Origin: Bacteroidota bacterium
GTDB taxonomy: Bacteria; Bacteroidota; Bacteroidia; B-17B0; Aurantibacillaceae
Assembly: GCA_013697245.1 (NCBI GenBank)
Contig: JACCXH010000038.1
Span: 1-64,000 of the forward strand
Direction: 5' to 3'
Length of the DNA: 64,000 nt
Shown piece by piece: positions 25,533 to 51,446 of the stretch (positions are counted from its first letter, which is position 1; each line of letters opens with the position of its first letter). The translations under genes and the position numbers were made by a program. The notes beneath the pieces are model-generated. The model had not been told where the DNA came from. It did not search any database and was given only the letters and a program-made list of their open reading frames with translations.

Positions 25533-25551
25533 GGTCCTTAAAATAAAAACA

Positions 25552-25584
25552 AAAAAGAGCGATATATTCTATCGCTCTTTTTTT
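25552..25584. terminator. Bidirectional intrinsic terminator
   Basis: AAAAAAGAGCGATA and TATCGCTCTTTTTT form a perfect 14 bp stem with a 5-nt loop, with T-runs on both strands. It lies between the convergent metzincin and GNAT genes. Confidence 0.92.
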
Positions 25585-27154: not shown

Positions 27155-27182
27155 ACCCCTTTCGCAATTAAACGAAAGGGGT
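27155..27182 (-). terminator. Intrinsic terminator of the RND efflux operon
   Basis: ACCCCTTTCG and CGAAAGGGGT pair over 10 bp around an 8-nt loop; on the minus strand the stem is followed by T6. It lies 12 bp after the RND permease stop codon. Confidence 0.88.
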
Positions 27183-27193
27183 GGTAAATTTAG

Positions 27194-30100
27194 TTAGTTA
27201 TCTAGATTACCGTAATCGAGCTTTTTCTTTTGGATGGCCAATATCAAAGTACACACCAAAACAAAGAAAGGAACGTACATAATAGCTCTTGGAAGATCGA
27301 AGTGCTGCAAAATGATTACCGCTTTTCTTTTTAATCTTTCTGCAATTAAATACATGGCAGGCACTAACAACAAGGTTAAGAAAGTTGCAAAGGCCAAACC
27401 AAATATCATCGTCCAGCTTAAAGGACCCCAGAACACTACGTTATCTCCACCAAAATGAATATGCGGAGAGGCATGTGCCAATAAACCTTCAAAATCGATA
27501 TTTAAACCCACCGCTAAAGGAATTAATCCTAAAATTGCAGCTGTTGCAGTTAAAACAACCGGTGTCATACGCGTTCTGCCGGCATCAACAATGGCATCAT
27601 AAAGCCCAACACCTTTTGCACGTTCTTCTTCTGCAAACTCAACTAACAAGATACCATTCCGAACAACAATACCAGCAAGAGCAACAATACCTATCCCGGT
27701 CATAACTATACTCATATCCATTTTAAATATAGCAGTGCCTAATAATACACCAATAACACTTAAAATAATTTCAGATAAAATAATAATTGGTTTGCCTATT
27801 GAGTTAAACTGAATAACCAACACCAATAAAATAATACCAATTGCGCTTACCATAGCGCCTCCTAAGAATGCACCTGTCTCTGCCTGCTCTTCTTGTTGTC
27901 CTGTAAATTTAACTACCACCGCGCCGGTTGGTTTATAGTCTTTTGCAACTGCTTCTAATTTTGCTACAACATTATTGGCATTAAATCCTTCCAACACATC
28001 AGAAGATAAAGTAATAACACGTTTATTTTGTTTACGTTTAATACCACCATACGTGTTTTCATAACGAATATCACAAAACGCTGAAAGCGGTACTGAGCGT
28101 AACATACCGCCAGCATTCATATCTCTGAACGTTATTTTTAAATTCTTAATTTGCTCAACATTTGTACGCTGATCATAATTATACCGTAATTGAATTGGAT
28201 ACTCATCATTTGCATCGCGAAATTTACTTGGGTTATCAATACCAAATACAGCTTTTCTTATTTCCATAGCTAATTGTACAGTAGAGATTCCTTCTCTGTT
28301 AGCGCGCTCACGATTAATATCAAAAATAATTTCAGGTTTATTATCCACAAAATCTGTTTTAAGATCAGCTACTCCGGGTACATCAGATTCTTGTAAAAAA
28401 CGTTTTAAATTCCTGGCGTTCTCAACTAACTCTTCAAATTTATCTCCTTTAATTTCTATGTTAATAGGTTTACCAACCGGTGGGCCAGCCTGCTCCTTGT
28501 TAGTTGTAATTTCGGCGCCGGCAATATTCCATTTTGTAGCTTGCAGCTCTTTTAAATATTTCATGCTACTTTGCCCATTACGTTTAGCGAATTCAACAAA
28601 ATTAATGGCAATTTTTCCTCGATTGGCATAAGAACTCTGATCTTCATCCTGCGGATCGGTAACACCAATAGTTACATTAGTAATGATGGAAGATACAATT
28701 GGATTATTTTCTCCAATAATAGCATTCACTTTTTTCTCCACCAACTTCATTACTTGATTGGTCTTTGAAGGATCAGTTCCTTCCGGCAACTTCACATACA
28801 CAAAAGCATTATTAGGATCGCCTTGCGGAAAGAACACAACATTGGGCGAGCGTACTTTCATTAAAAAGATAGAAAAAGCAAATAATCCTATTGTATAAAC
28901 CAATAACATATACGGACGTTTTAATCCCCATACTAATAAATTGGTATAACCGCGTTGAAATGAAGGCCAGGCTTTAGTTTGAAATTTCGCGATCACCTTA
29001 TACAAGTATAAACGGTGAACGATCATGAATAAAGCAAAGAAGATCATTAAATTACCATAAGCAACACTTCCGGTTAAATAAAATACAATTGCTACAACAC
29101 CATAAAGCAATAACCTTAACCAGGCTTTACGATTAATCTTACCATAATTTTTAAATTCTTCATCGTGCGATTTCATAAAATCTACAGCAAAAACCGGATT
29201 GATAATGTAAGCAACAAATAAAGAAGCAAGGAGTGTTATAATTAATGTAACCGGTAAAAAGAACATGAATTTACCAATTAAGCCCGGCCAGAATGCAAGG
29301 GGGATGAAGGGAGCAAGTGTAGTGATAGTACCACTTAATACAGGAAGAAATACTTCACCGGCCGCTTGTTTAGCCGCTATTTTTATATCTTTTTTTCCAT
29401 TATCAAAGATCCGATGCGTATTCTCAATAACCACAATGGCATCATCTACTACAATACCAAGGGCCAATAAAAACGCAAAGAGTACAATCATGTTTAAACT
29501 AAAACCAATACTTGGCATGAACATAAAGGCAATGAACATGGAAAGTGGTACAGATAAGGCAACGAACAAAGCGTTGGTTACACCCATAAAAAACATTAAG
29601 ATCAACGTTACTAAAATAAAACCAATAATAATTGTATTGATCAGATCGTGTAAGGTCAATTTTGTTTTGTCAGACTGATCGGCTGTAATTTTTATATCAA
29701 TATTAGACGGAAACTGTGTCTTCTTTAGATCTTCGATATTCTCTTTTATTTTATCTGATGCGGAAATTAAGTTCTCACCGGCGCGTTTAATAACGTTTAA
29801 GGTAATAACGTTCTTTCCTGCAAGACGCGCGTAACTTTGTGTTTCGGCAACAGTATCCAAAACATTTGCAAAATCTTTTAAATATAAACGCGCACCTGAC
29901 TGAGAAGAAATAACTAAATTCTTTAATTCTTCTATTGATTTAAATTCGTTCTTAATGCTTATTGTACGCTTGGTTCCATCCATTGGAATTTGTCCGCCGC
30001 TAATGGTTACGTTCTCGCTACCAATTGCGCGTTCAAGATCGCCCATGGTTAATTGCATGGATTGCATTTTGTACATATCCAAATTAACCTGAATCTCCCT

Positions 30101-30655
30101 GTCAGGGGCGCCAACCATTTTCACTTCAGTAATCTCTTTTAATCCTTCGATCCTATCTTTAAGATCATCGGCATACTCTTTTAATTTTTGAAGATCCATA
30201 TCACCCGCAATGTTGATGTACATGATAGGCAATTCAGAAAATGCTAACTCTTTTACAAAAGGCTGACGTGTAAGGCCACTTGGCAGATCGGATTTTGATT
30301 CGTCTACCTTATCTTTAATTTGCTGTCGTGCTTTATCAACTGTAACACTTGTATTAAATTCAACCGTAATTAACGATACATCCTGCATAGAGTTACTCGT
30401 TAATTTTTTTACACCCGGTATTGATTTTAATTTTTTCTCTAAGGGTTTGGTAATTGTATTTTCGATATTACTGGGCGAGTTACCCGCGTAAACCGTGCTA
30501 ATAAAGAATTTAGGCACAACAATATCAGGAAAACTTTCCTTTGGTAATTTATTATACGAGCTAATGCCTAATAAGGTAATAATAATCACACCAATATAAA
30601 TAGCAGTCTTATTATCGATGGCCCAACTACTGGGTTTAAATTGTTTAAAATCCAT
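27194..30655 (-). CDS. RND efflux transporter, inner-membrane permease (HAE1-like)
   Basis: 1153 residues, slightly longer than AcrB (about 1050). Transmembrane helix 1 is at about 15-35 (WAIDNKTAIYIGVIIITLLGI), and there are two large periplasmic loops, about 36-340 and 590-900. The proton-relay aspartates are visible in LGIVVDDAIVVIENTHR (Asp404, Asp405). An extra pair of hydrophobic stretches at about 515-560, between the two halves, accounts for the additional length. The C-terminal half repeats the ALAGIVVRNGILLVEF motif. It is the pump of a tripartite system with the adaptor and TolC-like proteins upstream in the operon, and uses proton motive force. Substrate class (drugs, detergents or lipids) cannot be read out. 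Confidence 0.93.
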   Translation of the reverse strand: MDFKQFKPSSWAIDNKTAIYIGVIIITLLGISSYNKLPKESFPDIVVPKFFISTVYAGNSPSNIENTITKPLEKKLKSIPGVKKLTSNSMQDVSLITVEFNTSVTVDKARQQIKDKVDESKSDLPSGLTRQPFVKELAFSELPIMYINIAGDMDLQKLKEYADDLKDRIEGLKEITEVKMVGAPDREIQVNLDMYKMQSMQLTMGDLERAIGSENVTISGGQIPMDGTKRTISIKNEFKSIEELKNLVISSQSGARLYLKDFANVLDTVAETQSYARLAGKNVITLNVIKRAGENLISASDKIKENIEDLKKTQFPSNIDIKITADQSDKTKLTLHDLINTIIIGFILVTLILMFFMGVTNALFVALSVPLSMFIAFMFMPSIGFSLNMIVLFAFLLALGIVVDDAIVVIENTHRIFDNGKKDIKIAAKQAAGEVFLPVLSGTITTLAPFIPLAFWPGLIGKFMFFLPVTLIITLLASLFVAYIINPVFAVDFMKSHDEEFKNYGKINRKAWLRLLLYGVVAIVFYLTGSVAYGNLMIFFALFMIVHRLYLYKVIAKFQTKAWPSFQRGYTNLLVWGLKRPYMLLVYTIGLFAFSIFLMKVRSPNVVFFPQGDPNNAFVYVKLPEGTDPSKTNQVMKLVEKKVNAIIGENNPIVSSIITNVTIGVTDPQDEDQSSYANRGKIAINFVEFAKRNGQSSMKYLKELQATKWNIAGAEITTNKEQAGPPVGKPINIEIKGDKFEELVENARNLKRFLQESDVPGVADLKTDFVDNKPEIIFDINRERANREGISTVQLAMEIRKAVFGIDNPSKFRDANDEYPIQLRYNYDQRTNVEQIKNLKITFRDMNAGGMLRSVPLSAFCDIRYENTYGGIKRKQNKRVITLSSDVLEGFNANNVVAKLEAVAKDYKPTGAVVVKFTGQQEEQAETGAFLGGAMVSAIGIILLVLVIQFNSIGKPIIILSEIILSVIGVLLGTAIFKMDMSIVMTGIGIVALAGIVVRNGILLVEFAEEERAKGVGLYDAIVDAGRTRMTPVVLTATAAILGLIPLAVGLNIDFEGLLAHASPHIHFGGDNVVFWGPLSWTMIFGLAFATFLTLLLVPAMYLIAERLKRKAVIILQHFDLPRAIMYVPFFVLVCTLILAIQKKKLDYGNLDN

Positions 30656-30726: not shown

Positions 30727-31833
30727 TTATTTCTTAATTTGAACAGCATCTCCTTCATTTAATCCATCGTAACCCGAAGTGATCAAGAGGTCCTCGCTGG
30801 TCAACCCACTCGTAATTTCTACCTGACCATTATATTCACGCCCAAGAGTTACATTGTGTTTTGCAGCTTTATTATTTTCAGCAACTAAAACAAAATGTTG
30901 TCCTTTAAGATCTTTTTGAACGTAATTAAGTGGAATTGCGATAACAGGTTTAGGCGACATGTAATCATTTATCTTTATGATCGCAATTTGGTTTGGGTGA
31001 AATTCTTTTTTATTATCTAATAAGATCTCAACGCCAAATGTTCTGTTCAAAGCACTAATAGCGCGTGAAGAATAATATACTTTTTCTATTAGCGTATCGT
31101 TTGTATCGGGAAAACGGATAATTACCTCGTCACCCTTGTGAACTTTAGAGGCATAACTTTCTGCAAGATCTGCCTTAACTTTTAAATTAGAGAAATTAAT
31201 TACGCGAATTGCCGGCATGCCAGGAGCAGTTAATTGTCCTAGTTTAATATCTACCGCATCAATTGTTCCATCAATTGGAGAAATGATCTTTGTCATACGC
31301 ACTTGTTCTCTCAACGTATTGATTTTTTTCTCCATACTTTCTTTTTGTGATTTCGCTTGTAGGAATTGAACTTCTGTTCCGATTTTTTGATCCCACAGCG
31401 CTTTTTGTTTTTCGTATAATTGATTTACTAACTCCGAAGAAGTTTGTAAATCTGAAATACTTTGTTGTAATGCGCGCGCATCTGTTTCAGCTAATTCCTG
31501 ACCCCTGCGTACTTCATCGCCAACTTTTACGTTTATTTTTGTAATTGTTCCGGGCATTTCAGAAGCAATAGAAACACTTTCTTCAGCATCTACCCTACCC
31601 TGAACATTGATGTAAGTTTTAAAAATAACCGGTGCTATGGCTGAAGCTTCAACCAAAACAAATTTTTTGTTCGAGTCGCCCTCCAGTTTTGAGATCTTGC
31701 CAGTGATCTCGGCCAGCTGGGTCTTTAACTCAGCTTGTTTTGCCTTTAATTCTACAAGACCTTCTTCTTTAGCGCCTCCGCAAGAAGATAAGATAAATAC
31801 ACTTGCCAAAATTGGAATAATGTAATTACGCAT
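30727..31833 (-). CDS. RND efflux periplasmic adaptor lipoprotein
   Basis: I take the ATG at 31833 (MRNYIIPILASVFILSSCGG), because that gives a clean lipoprotein signal with lipobox LSSC; the frame is open to an ATG at 31869. The mature protein has a Lys/Glu coiled coil at about 25-55, a first lipoyl half (INVKVGDEVRRGQELAETDA), an alpha hairpin, and a second lipoyl half (IISPIDGTIDAVDIKLGQLTAPG). It ends with the beta-barrel and membrane-proximal domains. It belongs to the HlyD/AcrA membrane-fusion class and links the permease to the TolC-like channel. Confidence 0.92.
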   Translation of the reverse strand: MRNYIIPILASVFILSSCGGAKEEGLVELKAKQAELKTQLAEITGKISKLEGDSNKKFVLVEASAIAPVIFKTYINVQGRVDAEESVSIASEMPGTITKINVKVGDEVRRGQELAETDARALQQSISDLQTSSELVNQLYEKQKALWDQKIGTEVQFLQAKSQKESMEKKINTLREQVRMTKIISPIDGTIDAVDIKLGQLTAPGMPAIRVINFSNLKVKADLAESYASKVHKGDEVIIRFPDTNDTLIEKVYYSSRAISALNRTFGVEILLDNKKEFHPNQIAIIKINDYMSPKPVIAIPLNYVQKDLKGQHFVLVAENNKAAKHNVTLGREYNGQVEITSGLTSEDLLITSGYDGLNEGDAVQIKK

Positions 31834-31898
31834 TTTTAGTTTTTGGATTTGAGTTGTAAATTGTAACATAACTTATTTTTTAATGTTTGATTTTTAAT

Positions 31899-33263
31899 TT
31901 ATTTAACCAGTGTGCCAATTGCTTTTTGATAATCTATTTTAAATACAAGCATATCGTAAACAGCATTGTAATAATTAGTTTGAGCTTCTTTTAAAGAAGT
32001 TTCGGCATTAATTATTTCTATGTTTGAACCTACACCTTGTTTAAATTTTTCCTGAACCACATCGTACACATGGTTAGCCATTTCCATGTTTTTCTTTTGG
32101 ATCAATAAACTTGAGTAGGCATTATTATAAGATATCGCTGCAACCGTTGCCTCTAATTCACCCGCCTGCTCTATCATTTTTACAGTATTTTCGTTTTTTC
32201 GGGAGCTTATCTTTGCCTGCTGAATTTTATTATGTCGTTGAAGGCCGTCAAAAATATTCAGGTTTAATGTTACTCCAACTAGTCCAATCGGATACCATTG
32301 TTTCATAGCATTGGTTTTATCGGTCTCAAAAATATTAGTTGTAGCCCTTTGTGTATTATATTGATAGCTTCCATAAGCAGCAAGCGTTGGCAAATAACCC
32401 CACTTTAAACGTTTCACATCCAGGTCTAATAAATTTTGTTGCGCTTGTAACAATAAATAATCAGGACGTTTTGAAACATCAATTTTAGAAATATTCAATT
32501 CTTCAAAATTGGTTACCACATTTAAGCTGTCGGTAAGAACGATGGGATCATTTACTTTGTAGCCCATTTGAAATTTAAGCATGGTTTCAGAAAGGCTAAT
32601 TAATTTTGTGGTTTTATCTTTTTCAGTGAGCAAATTATTGTATTGCACTTCTAGTCTTTCTACATCTATCAACTCCGCAAATCCTTGTTTATTAAAAGCC
32701 TTTGTATCATCATATATTTTTTTCAGCTTAACAACATTAGCATCCAGTAATTTAATTCTATCACGATTAATGATCACATTATAATAAGCTTTAGATACCT
32801 GTGCAACAAGGTCTGCTTTGCTGCGCGTTACGCTAATGTGAGAAAGATTAATAAATTCTTTAGCCGCTTTTAAACCAAAAATATAATCGCTGCTAAATAA
32901 TAATTGTGAAGCGCTAAAACCTGCGGTAGCATTATATTTTAAACCAAATCTAAGCGCCATGTATGTATTCGGAGGAGCTGCGGGATTAAATGCATTTGCT
33001 GAAACTATTTGAGTTGGAAGAGCAATGTAATCCTTAAAATCTATGCTACCGTTTATCTGCGGCAAGCCCAAACCTGCAATTTCTTTTCTTTTATACTCTG
33101 CGTTTTCCATGTCGAGCTCTGCATTTAAATAGCTCGGGCTATTCTTTATTGCAAACTCAATAGATTGTTGTAAACTAAAGTTACTGTTGGTGGCTTCCTG
33201 GGCCTTTGCTGATGCGCATACAATTACGACAAAAAGTAACGCGTATTTCTTAAACTGTATCAT
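31899..33263 (-). CDS. TolC-family outer-membrane efflux channel
   Basis: 454 residues with a signal peptide (to SAKAQ). Two internally related halves each contain a long coiled-coil hairpin; the repeat hallmark is seen in ALEFAIKNSPSYLNAELDMENAEY-like and INAETSLKEAQTNYYNAVYDMLVFKIDYQKAIG segments. This is the outer-membrane factor of the efflux pump. It starts 10 bp downstream of the tetR stop and precedes the adaptor gene, so the order is regulator - channel - adaptor - pump, which is common in Bacteroidota. Confidence 0.92.
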   Translation of the reverse strand: MIQFKKYALLFVVIVCASAKAQEATNSNFSLQQSIEFAIKNSPSYLNAELDMENAEYKRKEIAGLGLPQINGSIDFKDYIALPTQIVSANAFNPAAPPNTYMALRFGLKYNATAGFSASQLLFSSDYIFGLKAAKEFINLSHISVTRSKADLVAQVSKAYYNVIINRDRIKLLDANVVKLKKIYDDTKAFNKQGFAELIDVERLEVQYNNLLTEKDKTTKLISLSETMLKFQMGYKVNDPIVLTDSLNVVTNFEELNISKIDVSKRPDYLLLQAQQNLLDLDVKRLKWGYLPTLAAYGSYQYNTQRATTNIFETDKTNAMKQWYPIGLVGVTLNLNIFDGLQRHNKIQQAKISSRKNENTVKMIEQAGELEATVAAISYNNAYSSLLIQKKNMEMANHVYDVVQEKFKQGVGSNIEIINAETSLKEAQTNYYNAVYDMLVFKIDYQKAIGTLVK

Positions 33264-33273
33264 ATATATTGTT

Positions 33274-33888
33274 TTATTCTTCTTCTTTAATTTTTTTATA
33301 ATTATTAATGAGCTTGTGACCTTTTACAGTACAAATGCCATAAGCGAACATATCCAGTATTAATTCTGATGTTTTTGTAAAACTTATTTTTTCGAACGAA
33401 AAATAACTGCCAAACATTACCATATCAATTTGGGCCATTCTATATCTTGCGGTAAATTCAACGTCAATATCTGAGCGGTAAACTCCCATTTCTTTTCCCC
33501 TTTTAATATTGGCAAGCACATTTTTATACGCGCACTCTTCTTTAAATTTTTGAAAACGTTTAAAAGCCGTAGGGTAAAATTTTTGAAGGTCCAGAAAAAA
33601 AATAGGATTGATGTTTTGCATCATTTCCTTCATTTTAATAGAAATTAACATAATTTCATGAATAGGGTCTTTGGCATTTTGATTCATTTCGTCAAATTGA
33701 CGTTCATGATCCAACAGTTCATTTTCGCATAATTGGTTAACCAAATCATCCTTTTCTTTATAGAACTGGTAGATGGTTTTTTTTGACATACCCAGTTCCT
33801 TCGCAATATCATCCATAGTTACACGCTTAATACCGTACCTAAAAAATAAGATTAAAGCTGCTTTCAATATCTTTTCTTGTGTTTCCAT
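33274..33888 (-). CDS. TetR-family repressor of the RND operon
   Basis: 204 residues. The N-terminal helix-turn-helix spans about 20-48 (VTMDDIAKELGMSKKTIYQFYKEKDDLVNQ), as in TetR/AcrR; the ligand-binding C-terminal domain is helical and family-specific. It is first gene of the efflux operon. A 32 bp palindrome covers its own promoter (33905-33943), so autorepression and repression of the pump genes are expected. The inducing ligand is unknown. Confidence 0.92.
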   Translation of the reverse strand: METQEKILKAALILFFRYGIKRVTMDDIAKELGMSKKTIYQFYKEKDDLVNQLCENELLDHERQFDEMNQNAKDPIHEIMLISIKMKEMMQNINPIFFLDLQKFYPTAFKRFQKFKEECAYKNVLANIKRGKEMGVYRSDIDVEFTARYRMAQIDMVMFGSYFSFEKISFTKTSELILDMFAYGICTVKGHKLINNYKKIKEEE

Positions 33889-33904
33889 TTTTCTTATTCG
33901 GGTA

Positions 33905-33936
33905 CAAAACTATGGAAACTTTTTTTGTCTTGCAAG
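33905..33936 (-). promoter_or_regulatory. tetR-efflux operon promoter
   Basis: Reading the minus strand, CTTG (33933-33936) serves as the -33 box and TAGTTTTG (33905-33912) as an exact TAnnTTTG -7 box, with a 20-bp spacer. The tetR ATG follows 16 bp after the -7 box, giving a leader of about 10 nt. Confidence 0.72.
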
Positions 33937-33943
33937 TTTCCAT
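33912..33943. promoter_or_regulatory. Palindromic operator, likely TetR binding site
   Basis: Half-sites ATGGAAACTT (33912-33921) and AAGTTTCCAT (33934-33943) are perfect inverted copies, 10 bp each, separated by 12 bp. The palindrome overlaps the -33 box fully and the last base of the -7 box of the tetR promoter, exactly where an autorepressor should bind. It also lies 34 bp before the start of the divergent M23 peptidase gene, so that gene might respond too. Confidence 0.78.
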
Positions 33944-33976
33944 TAAAAAATATTTTTTTGCATCTTTACACTTTAA

Positions 33977-34843
33977 ATGGTAGAAACAAAAAATAGCCGC
34001 TGGAAGAGATTTGGTGCCTTTTTGAGGAGCAAGTACCGCCTGGTTATCTTAAACGACAATACTTTTGGCGAGAAGATATCCCTACGACTCTCGCCATTAG
34101 GCCTAATTACAGGAATTTTTGCTATAACCATAGTAATGACAACGCTTGTAATAAGCCTTGTAGCCTTTACGCCTTTAAGAGAATACATTCCGGGCTATGG
34201 TACTGTTGCAGAACGCAAGCAGATATTGGACCTTAGCCAAAAAGCCGACTCAATGGAACAAACATTGCAGGCAAGAGCTGCTTATATGAACAGTATTTTA
34301 AATGTTTTGAACGAAAAGTTTGAGACCAAGACCGAAAAACCAAAAAAAGACACTACCGGCAAATACAATAATATAAATACAAAGGCCAGTAACAGCGATC
34401 TTGAATTTAGAAACGATTTTGAGCAAAATAAAAATAACTCAATTGCTACTAAAACAAAATATAAAGGTTTAAGCGATCTTGTATTTTTTACACCCGTAAA
34501 AGGATTGATAAGCGAATCGTTTAATTTATCTGAAAATCATTACGGTTTGGATATTGTTACAAAACCGGATGAGACCATAAAATCTACTTTAGATGGCACC
34601 ATTGTTTTTACAGGCTTTTCCGCCGAGGATGGAAACATTATTGAAGTGCAACATAGCAATAACCTTACCAGTATATATAAACACAATGCAGCGCTATTAA
34701 AAAAAACCGGCGATAGAATAAAAGCCGGCGAGGCAATTTCTGTTGTAGGAAATACCGGCGAAAGAAGTAAGGGACCACATTTGCATTTTGAGTTGTGGTT
34801 TGATGGTCAACCGATCAACCCGCAGGATTTTGTTGCTTTTTAA
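33977..34843 (+). CDS. Membrane-anchored M23 (LytM-type) peptidase
   Basis: 288 residues. A short basic cytoplasmic N-terminus is followed by one transmembrane segment (about 42-65, LITGIFAITIVMTTLVISLVAF), a coiled coil to about 115 and a linker. The LytM domain occupies about 160-285, with zinc ligands in ENHYGLDI (HxxxD) and GPHLHFELW (His268, His270). The intact metal motifs fit either an active peptidoglycan endopeptidase or an activator of amidases. Its last 29 bp overlap the convergent O-antigen ligase gene. It is divergent from tetR and shares that control region. Confidence 0.88.
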   Translation: MVETKNSRWKRFGAFLRSKYRLVILNDNTFGEKISLRLSPLGLITGIFAITIVMTTLVISLVAFTPLREYIPGYGTVAERKQILDLSQKADSMEQTLQARAAYMNSILNVLNEKFETKTEKPKKDTTGKYNNINTKASNSDLEFRNDFEQNKNNSIATKTKYKGLSDLVFFTPVKGLISESFNLSENHYGLDIVTKPDETIKSTLDGTIVFTGFSAEDGNIIEVQHSNNLTSIYKHNAALLKKTGDRIKAGEAISVVGNTGERSKGPHLHFELWFDGQPINPQDFVAF

Positions 34844-51384: not shown

Positions 51385-51401
51385 ATTAAAGTGCGATCCA
51401 T

Positions 51402-51434
51402 AAAAAAAGCCTTTCAAATTGAAAGGCTTTTTTT
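51402..51434. terminator. Bidirectional intrinsic terminator
   Basis: AAAAAAAGCCTTTC and GAAAGGCTTTTTTT form a 14 bp stem with an AAATT loop, with T-runs on both sides. It lies between the decayed T9SS gene (plus) and the gene at 51447 (minus). Confidence 0.9.
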
Positions 51435-51446
51435 ATTATAGAAATT

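Follow-up and report, generated by a model that had tools for sequence, protein, structure and literature searches.

A conserved probable operator at the tetR-RND efflux promoter of Bacteroidota, with a probable second target before a TonB receptor/DUF4249 operon

Here, we describe a palindrome that is very probably the autorepressor operator of a TetR-family gene in Bacteroidota, a prediction from sequence, and that lies over the promoter of the tetR-OEP-MFP-RND efflux operon. What we observe directly are the sites, where they lie on promoters, how well they are conserved, and the gene links in cis and in trans. We consider it likely that the regulator represses its own pump operon and, in the genus of the source genome (the own genus below), also acts in trans on an operon for a TonB-dependent receptor (TBDT) and a DUF4249 protein, via a second operator. 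This conserved second target is the new element: the kind of switch is known, the operator is new, and the regulon is unusual.

Promoter, regulator and pump genes

The following features are found in the window, that is, the whole 64-kb stretch of DNA analysed.

27194..30655, minus strand: RND pump, 1153 aa (Pfam ACR_tran)
30727..31869, minus strand: periplasmic adaptor, MFP (Pfam HlyD_D23; TIGR01730 above cut-off)
31899..33263, minus strand: outer-membrane efflux protein, OEP, TolC-like (Pfam OEP)
33274..33888, minus strand: tetR, TetR/AcrR-family regulator of 204 aa, the presumed operator binder (Pfam TetR_N)
33905..33912, minus strand: -7 box TAGTTTTG of the tetR operon, matching the consensus TAnnTTTG
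33912..33943, no strand: operator palindrome, with conserved core GGAAACTT-N12-AAGTTTCC at 33914-33941
33933..33935, minus strand: TTG resembling a -33 box, within the operator and 20 nt from the -7 box
33960..33969, plus strand: GCATCTTTAC, a promoter-like element belonging to the M23 gene and lying apart from the operator (pattern GCAT[CA]TTT)
33977..34843, plus strand: divergent neighbour, M23 peptidase gene (Pfam Peptidase_M23)

The tetR, OEP, MFP and RND genes share one strand, downstream of the operator-covered promoter. TetR matches PF00440 (TetR_N) with an E-value of 1.7e-13 (50.5 bits against a cut-off of 24), and it is the only TetR match that the own genome holds. Its AlphaFold model (pLDDT 93.6) has an all-helical fold with an HTH and a ligand-binding domain, and aligns with TetR-family structures at Z up to 17.7 over 181-185 residues (rmsd 2.6-2.8), a comparison that names no ligand. 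ACR_tran, HlyD_D23 and OEP together identify an RND tripartite efflux system. As to whether the pump is of HAE-1 or HME type, its best NCBIfam models are multidrug ones, all below cut-off, and MexK and MdtB are among its closest relatives of solved structure.

The first-pass annotation had placed a perfect palindrome over the -33 region, touching the -7 box, and we find this to be correct: positions 33912-33943 form a perfect 10+12+10 bp palindrome, ATGGAAACTT-N12-AAGTTTCCAT, which overlaps the -7 box of the minus-strand promoter by one base. In the available parts of earlier studies, the Bacteroidota promoter consensus is given as TAnnTTTG at -7 and TTTG at -33 (PMC9723704, PMC7366714), with the -7 box occupying -12 to -5 (PMC9723704). 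By its sequence, the -7 box of the window is of this TAnnTTTG, primary-sigma type. The -33 position, which depends on a start site that is predicted only, reads CTTG in the window and the consensus TTTG in many relatives. With the -7 box set at -12 to -5, the predicted start of tetR transcription falls near 33900, which would put the operator at about -43 to -12.

When the palindrome pattern is searched for with up to 3 mismatches, the 64-kb window yields 1 match, versus 0.01 from shuffles. Perfect 10-bp inverted repeats of any sequence (spacer 0-30) give 28 overlapping matches. Since such repeats are common in this AT-rich window, the case is made by position and conservation and not by the palindrome alone. 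We set aside ATGGAAAC (33881-33888, at the start codon of tetR), a third half-site that is apparently due to chance: orthologues such as L014, L015, L017, L020, L022 and L027 are without it. Also left unused was a weak GGAAAC-like spacer element at offset 10, whose mean of 3.66 of 6 was the best among 24 tries. Elsewhere in the window, perfect hairpins are present at 25551-25583, 27155-27182 and 51400-51436, perhaps transcription terminators; that at 27155-27182 is just behind the RND gene.

Conservation at tetR and apparent exchange of the regulator

Our set of relatives comprises 60 genomes, own included, 56 of which have a TetR match. In 54 of these 56, the operator precedes tetR with no more than 3 mismatches in the 16 arm positions: 37/37 in the own genus (own genome included) and 17/19 outside it. 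Only G044 (6 mismatches) and G047 (7) lack it; in the same scan, nine unrelated promoter regions gave best scores of 6-7 mismatches. Summed over the 60 genomes, 72 sites match the core GGAAACTT-N12-AAGTTTCC when no more than 1 mismatch is allowed, versus 8 for a reversed control, whose rate at 1 mismatch is about one match per seven genomes. Exact core sites occur in 26 of 247 genomes of the class versus 1 for the control. Given the conservation and the reversed-control pattern, we reject a chance palindrome.

Among the best 80 of 568 tetR loci from named Bacteroidota (Chitinophagaceae, Sphingobacteriaceae, Hymenobacter, Dyadobacter, Cyclobacteriaceae and others), 79 keep the operator at tetR; at the 80th, L245, a contig end cuts the site and the right arm is present. 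This conservation across relatives supports the earlier proposal that the tetR-OEP-MFP-RND promoter has the palindrome as its operator. The scan of these 80 loci allowed spacers of 8-16 bp, and all 79 sites have 12 bp. A first pass had returned 77 sites; the other two, in the Pedobacter loci L216 and L249, are perfect and lie further upstream, at -154 and -156. By eye, the sequences on the two sides of each Pedobacter site look alike, as they would after a duplication. The box TAGTTTTG lies one base past the right arm in 34/35 located genus loci and in 58 of the 79 named promoters (again from the best 80 of 568); the 21 with a differing -7 box include Hymenobacter and Dyadobacter loci. Wherever named loci reach far enough, the gene order tetR-OEP-MFP-RND is seen, with an insertion before MFP in L194. 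In one genome (G013:C188:79852-80438; L029, L125), the assembly has the tetR match in two pieces with stop codons, and the operator remains, with 1 mismatch.

Across the 77 first-pass named sites, SKRT stands in place of SKKT in the HTH recognition region in only four loci, all Dyadobacter (L208, L221, L224, L240). All four have a left arm changed from GGAAACTT to GAAAACTT, three of them on both sides, versus 4/73 SKKT loci with a changed second base in one arm. The association between SKRT and arm change over these 77 sites has a Fisher p of 5e-5 with SKRT confined to one lineage, and because of that single lineage the covariation of HTH and operator is only suggestive. Within the own genus, two divergent TetR clades, apart in the tree, occupy the one slot. 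In G022 (L193), TetR is 41% identical to that of the window and the RND pump 85%; in G035 (L184) the figures are 67% and 62%. Both clades come with the same operator, promoter and M23 neighbour. These comparisons suggest that, in the own genus, one regulator has replaced another in the same slot while the operator stayed.

A second site before a TonB receptor/DUF4249 operon

The first-pass annotation, made without the genome, had proposed a genome search for the half-site. Searching for the core pattern returns just one further site with at most 1 mismatch in the own genome, which that annotation had therefore missed. It has 1 mismatch in the 9+9 pattern and lies elsewhere in the genome.

C37:105238-105267: second operator, followed by TAGTTTTG, a TBDT gene (785 aa) and a DUF4249 gene (L005 5239-8576)

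The receptor carries PF07715 (E 9e-10) and PF13715 (E 6.7e-19), including the plug domain expected of a TBDT, and the adjacent protein carries PF14054 (DUF4249; E 6.6e-22). Searches against solved structures gave no match for the TBDT and one meaningless match for the DUF4249 protein (E 0.59).

The own genus comprises 37 genomes with the own one, and 35 TBDT orthologues are testable. The count leaves out G021, which has no match above 43%, and G013, where only residues 376-785 are matched, so that there is no start from which to look upstream. The operator precedes the TBDT orthologue in 26 of the 35: 23 sites have at most 1 mismatch, that of G028 has 2, and those of G007 and G026 have perfect arms with a 13-bp spacer. 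In the other 9, a good site is missing, with remnants in G003, G024, G027 and G030 and none in G004, G005, G025, G032 and G035. Judged by sequence, this recurrence before one orthologue exceeds what chance gives, and it is probable that one TetR co-controls efflux and a TonB importer in the own genus. The G008 assembly has its TBDT gene broken up into two reading frames (L086 1444-3932).

Outside the genus, a TBDT/DUF4249 pair with the operator and an in-phase -7 box is found in G042, G056 and G060, and with a poor box in G065 (receptor identities of 54, 42, 60 and 41%, respectively). The pair is also linked to the pump in cis. In genus g6, which belongs to another family, TBDT and DUF4249 genes lie directly behind RND on the same strand, with gaps of 207 bp in G041, 62 bp in G116 and 23 bp in G152; in the last of these, the RND-TBDT junction is on one contig and tetR on another.

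A genome-wide search of 29 named relatives found one site in 24 and two in 5. The 5 second sites, versus 6 control matches, consist of 2 at TBDT/DUF4249 (one with a poor box), 1 at OEP-MFP/CDF, 1 doubtful site in Solitalea and 1 probable chance match. In 23 non-genus relatives, 4 second sites compare with 3 control matches. Because these figures match the control rate, the number of second sites outside the own genus is not above chance, and what speaks for some of them, as predicted sites, is only their place at TBDT/DUF4249 and their in-phase -7 box. Since most of the named relatives (24 of 29) carry a single site, the TBDT link is not a general one.

Several individual sites may be recorded. 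In G051 (L095 3977), a site has an OEP-MFP operon on one side and a cation-efflux (CDF) gene on the other; G051 and G064 are apparently one genome. In G031, a perfect core site precedes an AraC-type regulator gene (L070 4016), and a second match with 1 mismatch (L071) has a -7 box directed away from the nearest gene. Solitalea longa (G062, L290 3762) has a 1-mismatch site that precedes an OEP-MFP efflux operon and a further TetR gene pair; it is doubtful because neither side has an in-phase -7 box. In G056 (L097 4025), a site with a -7 box precedes the gene of a calcineurin-like phosphoesterase; the bile-induced operons of B. thetaiotaomicron given in the available part of PMC10994844 include a calcineurin-type gene. 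We dropped a GC-rich match inside overlapping ORFs (G068:C68) and a 1-mismatch match that overlaps an ORF start and has no -7 box (G010:C350, L082). Matches with 3 mismatches in the own genome, at C28, C33 and C37:139953, are probably chance: the reversed control gives 10 versus 5, and the ORFs are unrelated.

Proposed switch, its alternatives and its relatives

From this arrangement we infer binding, repression, induction and function as follows. One or more TetR dimers on the operator would cover the promoter from -33 to -7 and keep RNA polymerase off tetR-OEP-MFP-RND; with the operator over -43 to -12, the polymerase would be excluded. The arm centres are 22 bp apart, or about two helical turns, a geometry that fits two dimers, as in QacR, or one wide dimer. 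A small molecule in the C-terminal domain of TetR would release the repressor from the operator. In the own genus, TetR would also hold down TBDT and DUF4249 in trans, via a copied operator-promoter module, and with a shared repressor the efflux pump and the outer-membrane importer would rise together. TetR-family activators exist as well. Bile or membrane stress was considered as the inducer, an idea taken from the available parts of papers on B. thetaiotaomicron; it finds no support in the results here, and we set it aside.

It could be argued that autorepression is purely local, and that the site before the TBDT gene is a promoter look-alike or belongs to another regulator. The single site in 24/29 named relatives, the second sites there that are no commoner than control matches, and the absence of the TBDT site from 9/35 testable genus members all fit such a reading. 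Nevertheless, we regard it as unlikely: chance would scatter the sites, whereas in the own genus the arms, the 12-bp spacer (13 bp in G007 and G026) and the -7 box are all kept before the same orthologue. The second target is likewise favoured by three genomes from another family, in which TBDT/DUF4249 lies in cis behind the pump, and by the single TetR match of the own genome. Still less credible is that the inverted repeat acts as a transcript hairpin, or is a chance repeat, and not a protein site. Frequent perfect 10-bp inverted repeats in this AT-rich window speak for that idea, but it is very hard to reconcile with a palindrome upstream of the predicted transcription start, with the conservation across families of base sequence and not just of pairing, and with the fixed spacer and promoter phase.

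The first-pass annotation also suggested that the operator may give cell-wall and efflux genes shared control, through the divergent M23 peptidase gene. This part of its proposal does not hold up well, and joint control of M23 is, in our judgement, improbable, more so than purely local autorepression. In its favour, M23 adjoins tetR divergently in 35/35 own-genus members that have M23, and in the window its start is 33 bp from the operator, a distance at which steric effects are possible. However, M23 (one match per genome, in 53/60 genomes) is beside tetR in 0/18 genomes outside the genus, where the nearest M23 on a tetR contig, in G047, is about 22 kb away. In those 18 genomes, the 9 upstream regions of M23 examined contain no operator (best 6-7 mismatches). 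Moreover, the distance between operator and GCAT[CA]TTT element is not fixed: it varies over 18-29 bp among the 25 of 29 genus loci with the element, which is absent from four (L024, L030, L031, L034), and in G011 the M23 start is about 340 bp from the operator. On this sequence evidence, M23 is probably not part of the regulon; nearness makes some shared control possible, but no selection for it is evident.

The predicted repressor of pump and receptor operons has several known relatives. In AcrR-acrAB and MtrR-mtrCDE, a TetR repressor is encoded beside an RND efflux operon, with a palindromic operator on the pump promoter. The window TetR resembles AcrR and MtrR in lying next to an RND operon, and aligns with the MtrR structure 7jnp at Z 16.4 (rmsd 3.7, 188 residues); but it scores far below the curated cut-offs of both models, which it does not reach in an orthology test (PRK10668, 33.3 versus 271 bits; NF051852, 47.9 versus 280 bits). 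It further differs in that its gene opens the pump operon and in having a TonB receptor operon as predicted second target, and the AcrR and MtrR operators differ in sequence from that of the window. QacR binds IR1, a long inverted repeat at a promoter, as two dimers. The window TetR shares its fold (1jt0, Z 15.6, rmsd 3.5, 182 residues), whereas the operator sequences are unrelated. Within the Bacteroidota, the F. johnsoniae operon FJOH_RS06575-tolC-MFP-permease has the same tetR-tolC-adaptor-pump order; this likeness is one of gene order, and the available part of the report contains no operator analysis that we could find (PMC10197871). BT2172-BT2173 is the same TBDT plus DUF4249 gene pair as that on C37, and the DUF4249 protein has been proposed, in the available part of the paper, to work with the TonB transporter (PMC11003636). 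TetR and efflux are mentioned 0 times in the main text of that paper (PMC11003636). In the literature that we searched, from which subscription papers were mostly absent, we found no description of this operator or of a link between TetR/RND and TBDT/DUF4249.

TetR operators are generally hard to predict from sequence. Here, one module with fixed spacer and phase recurs across many Bacteroidota families, so that sites can be called in genomes with this TetR. Through the conserved second target, an efflux pump becomes linked with an outer-membrane import pair, and the function of the DUF4249 receptor thus becomes testable via one regulator mutant. More tentatively, and with the odds against it, one TetR switch may run an export-and-recapture (or counter-flow) circuit for a single compound. 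The RND pump would expel this compound, for example a metallophore or an amphipathic metabolite, and TBDT and DUF4249 would take a loaded or modified form back, with the compound as shared inducer. If this were true, TBDT/DUF4249 pairs would gain a physiological handle from their tie to the pump, which is in cis in one family and by operator in another, and the repressor would be a reporter for the substrate.
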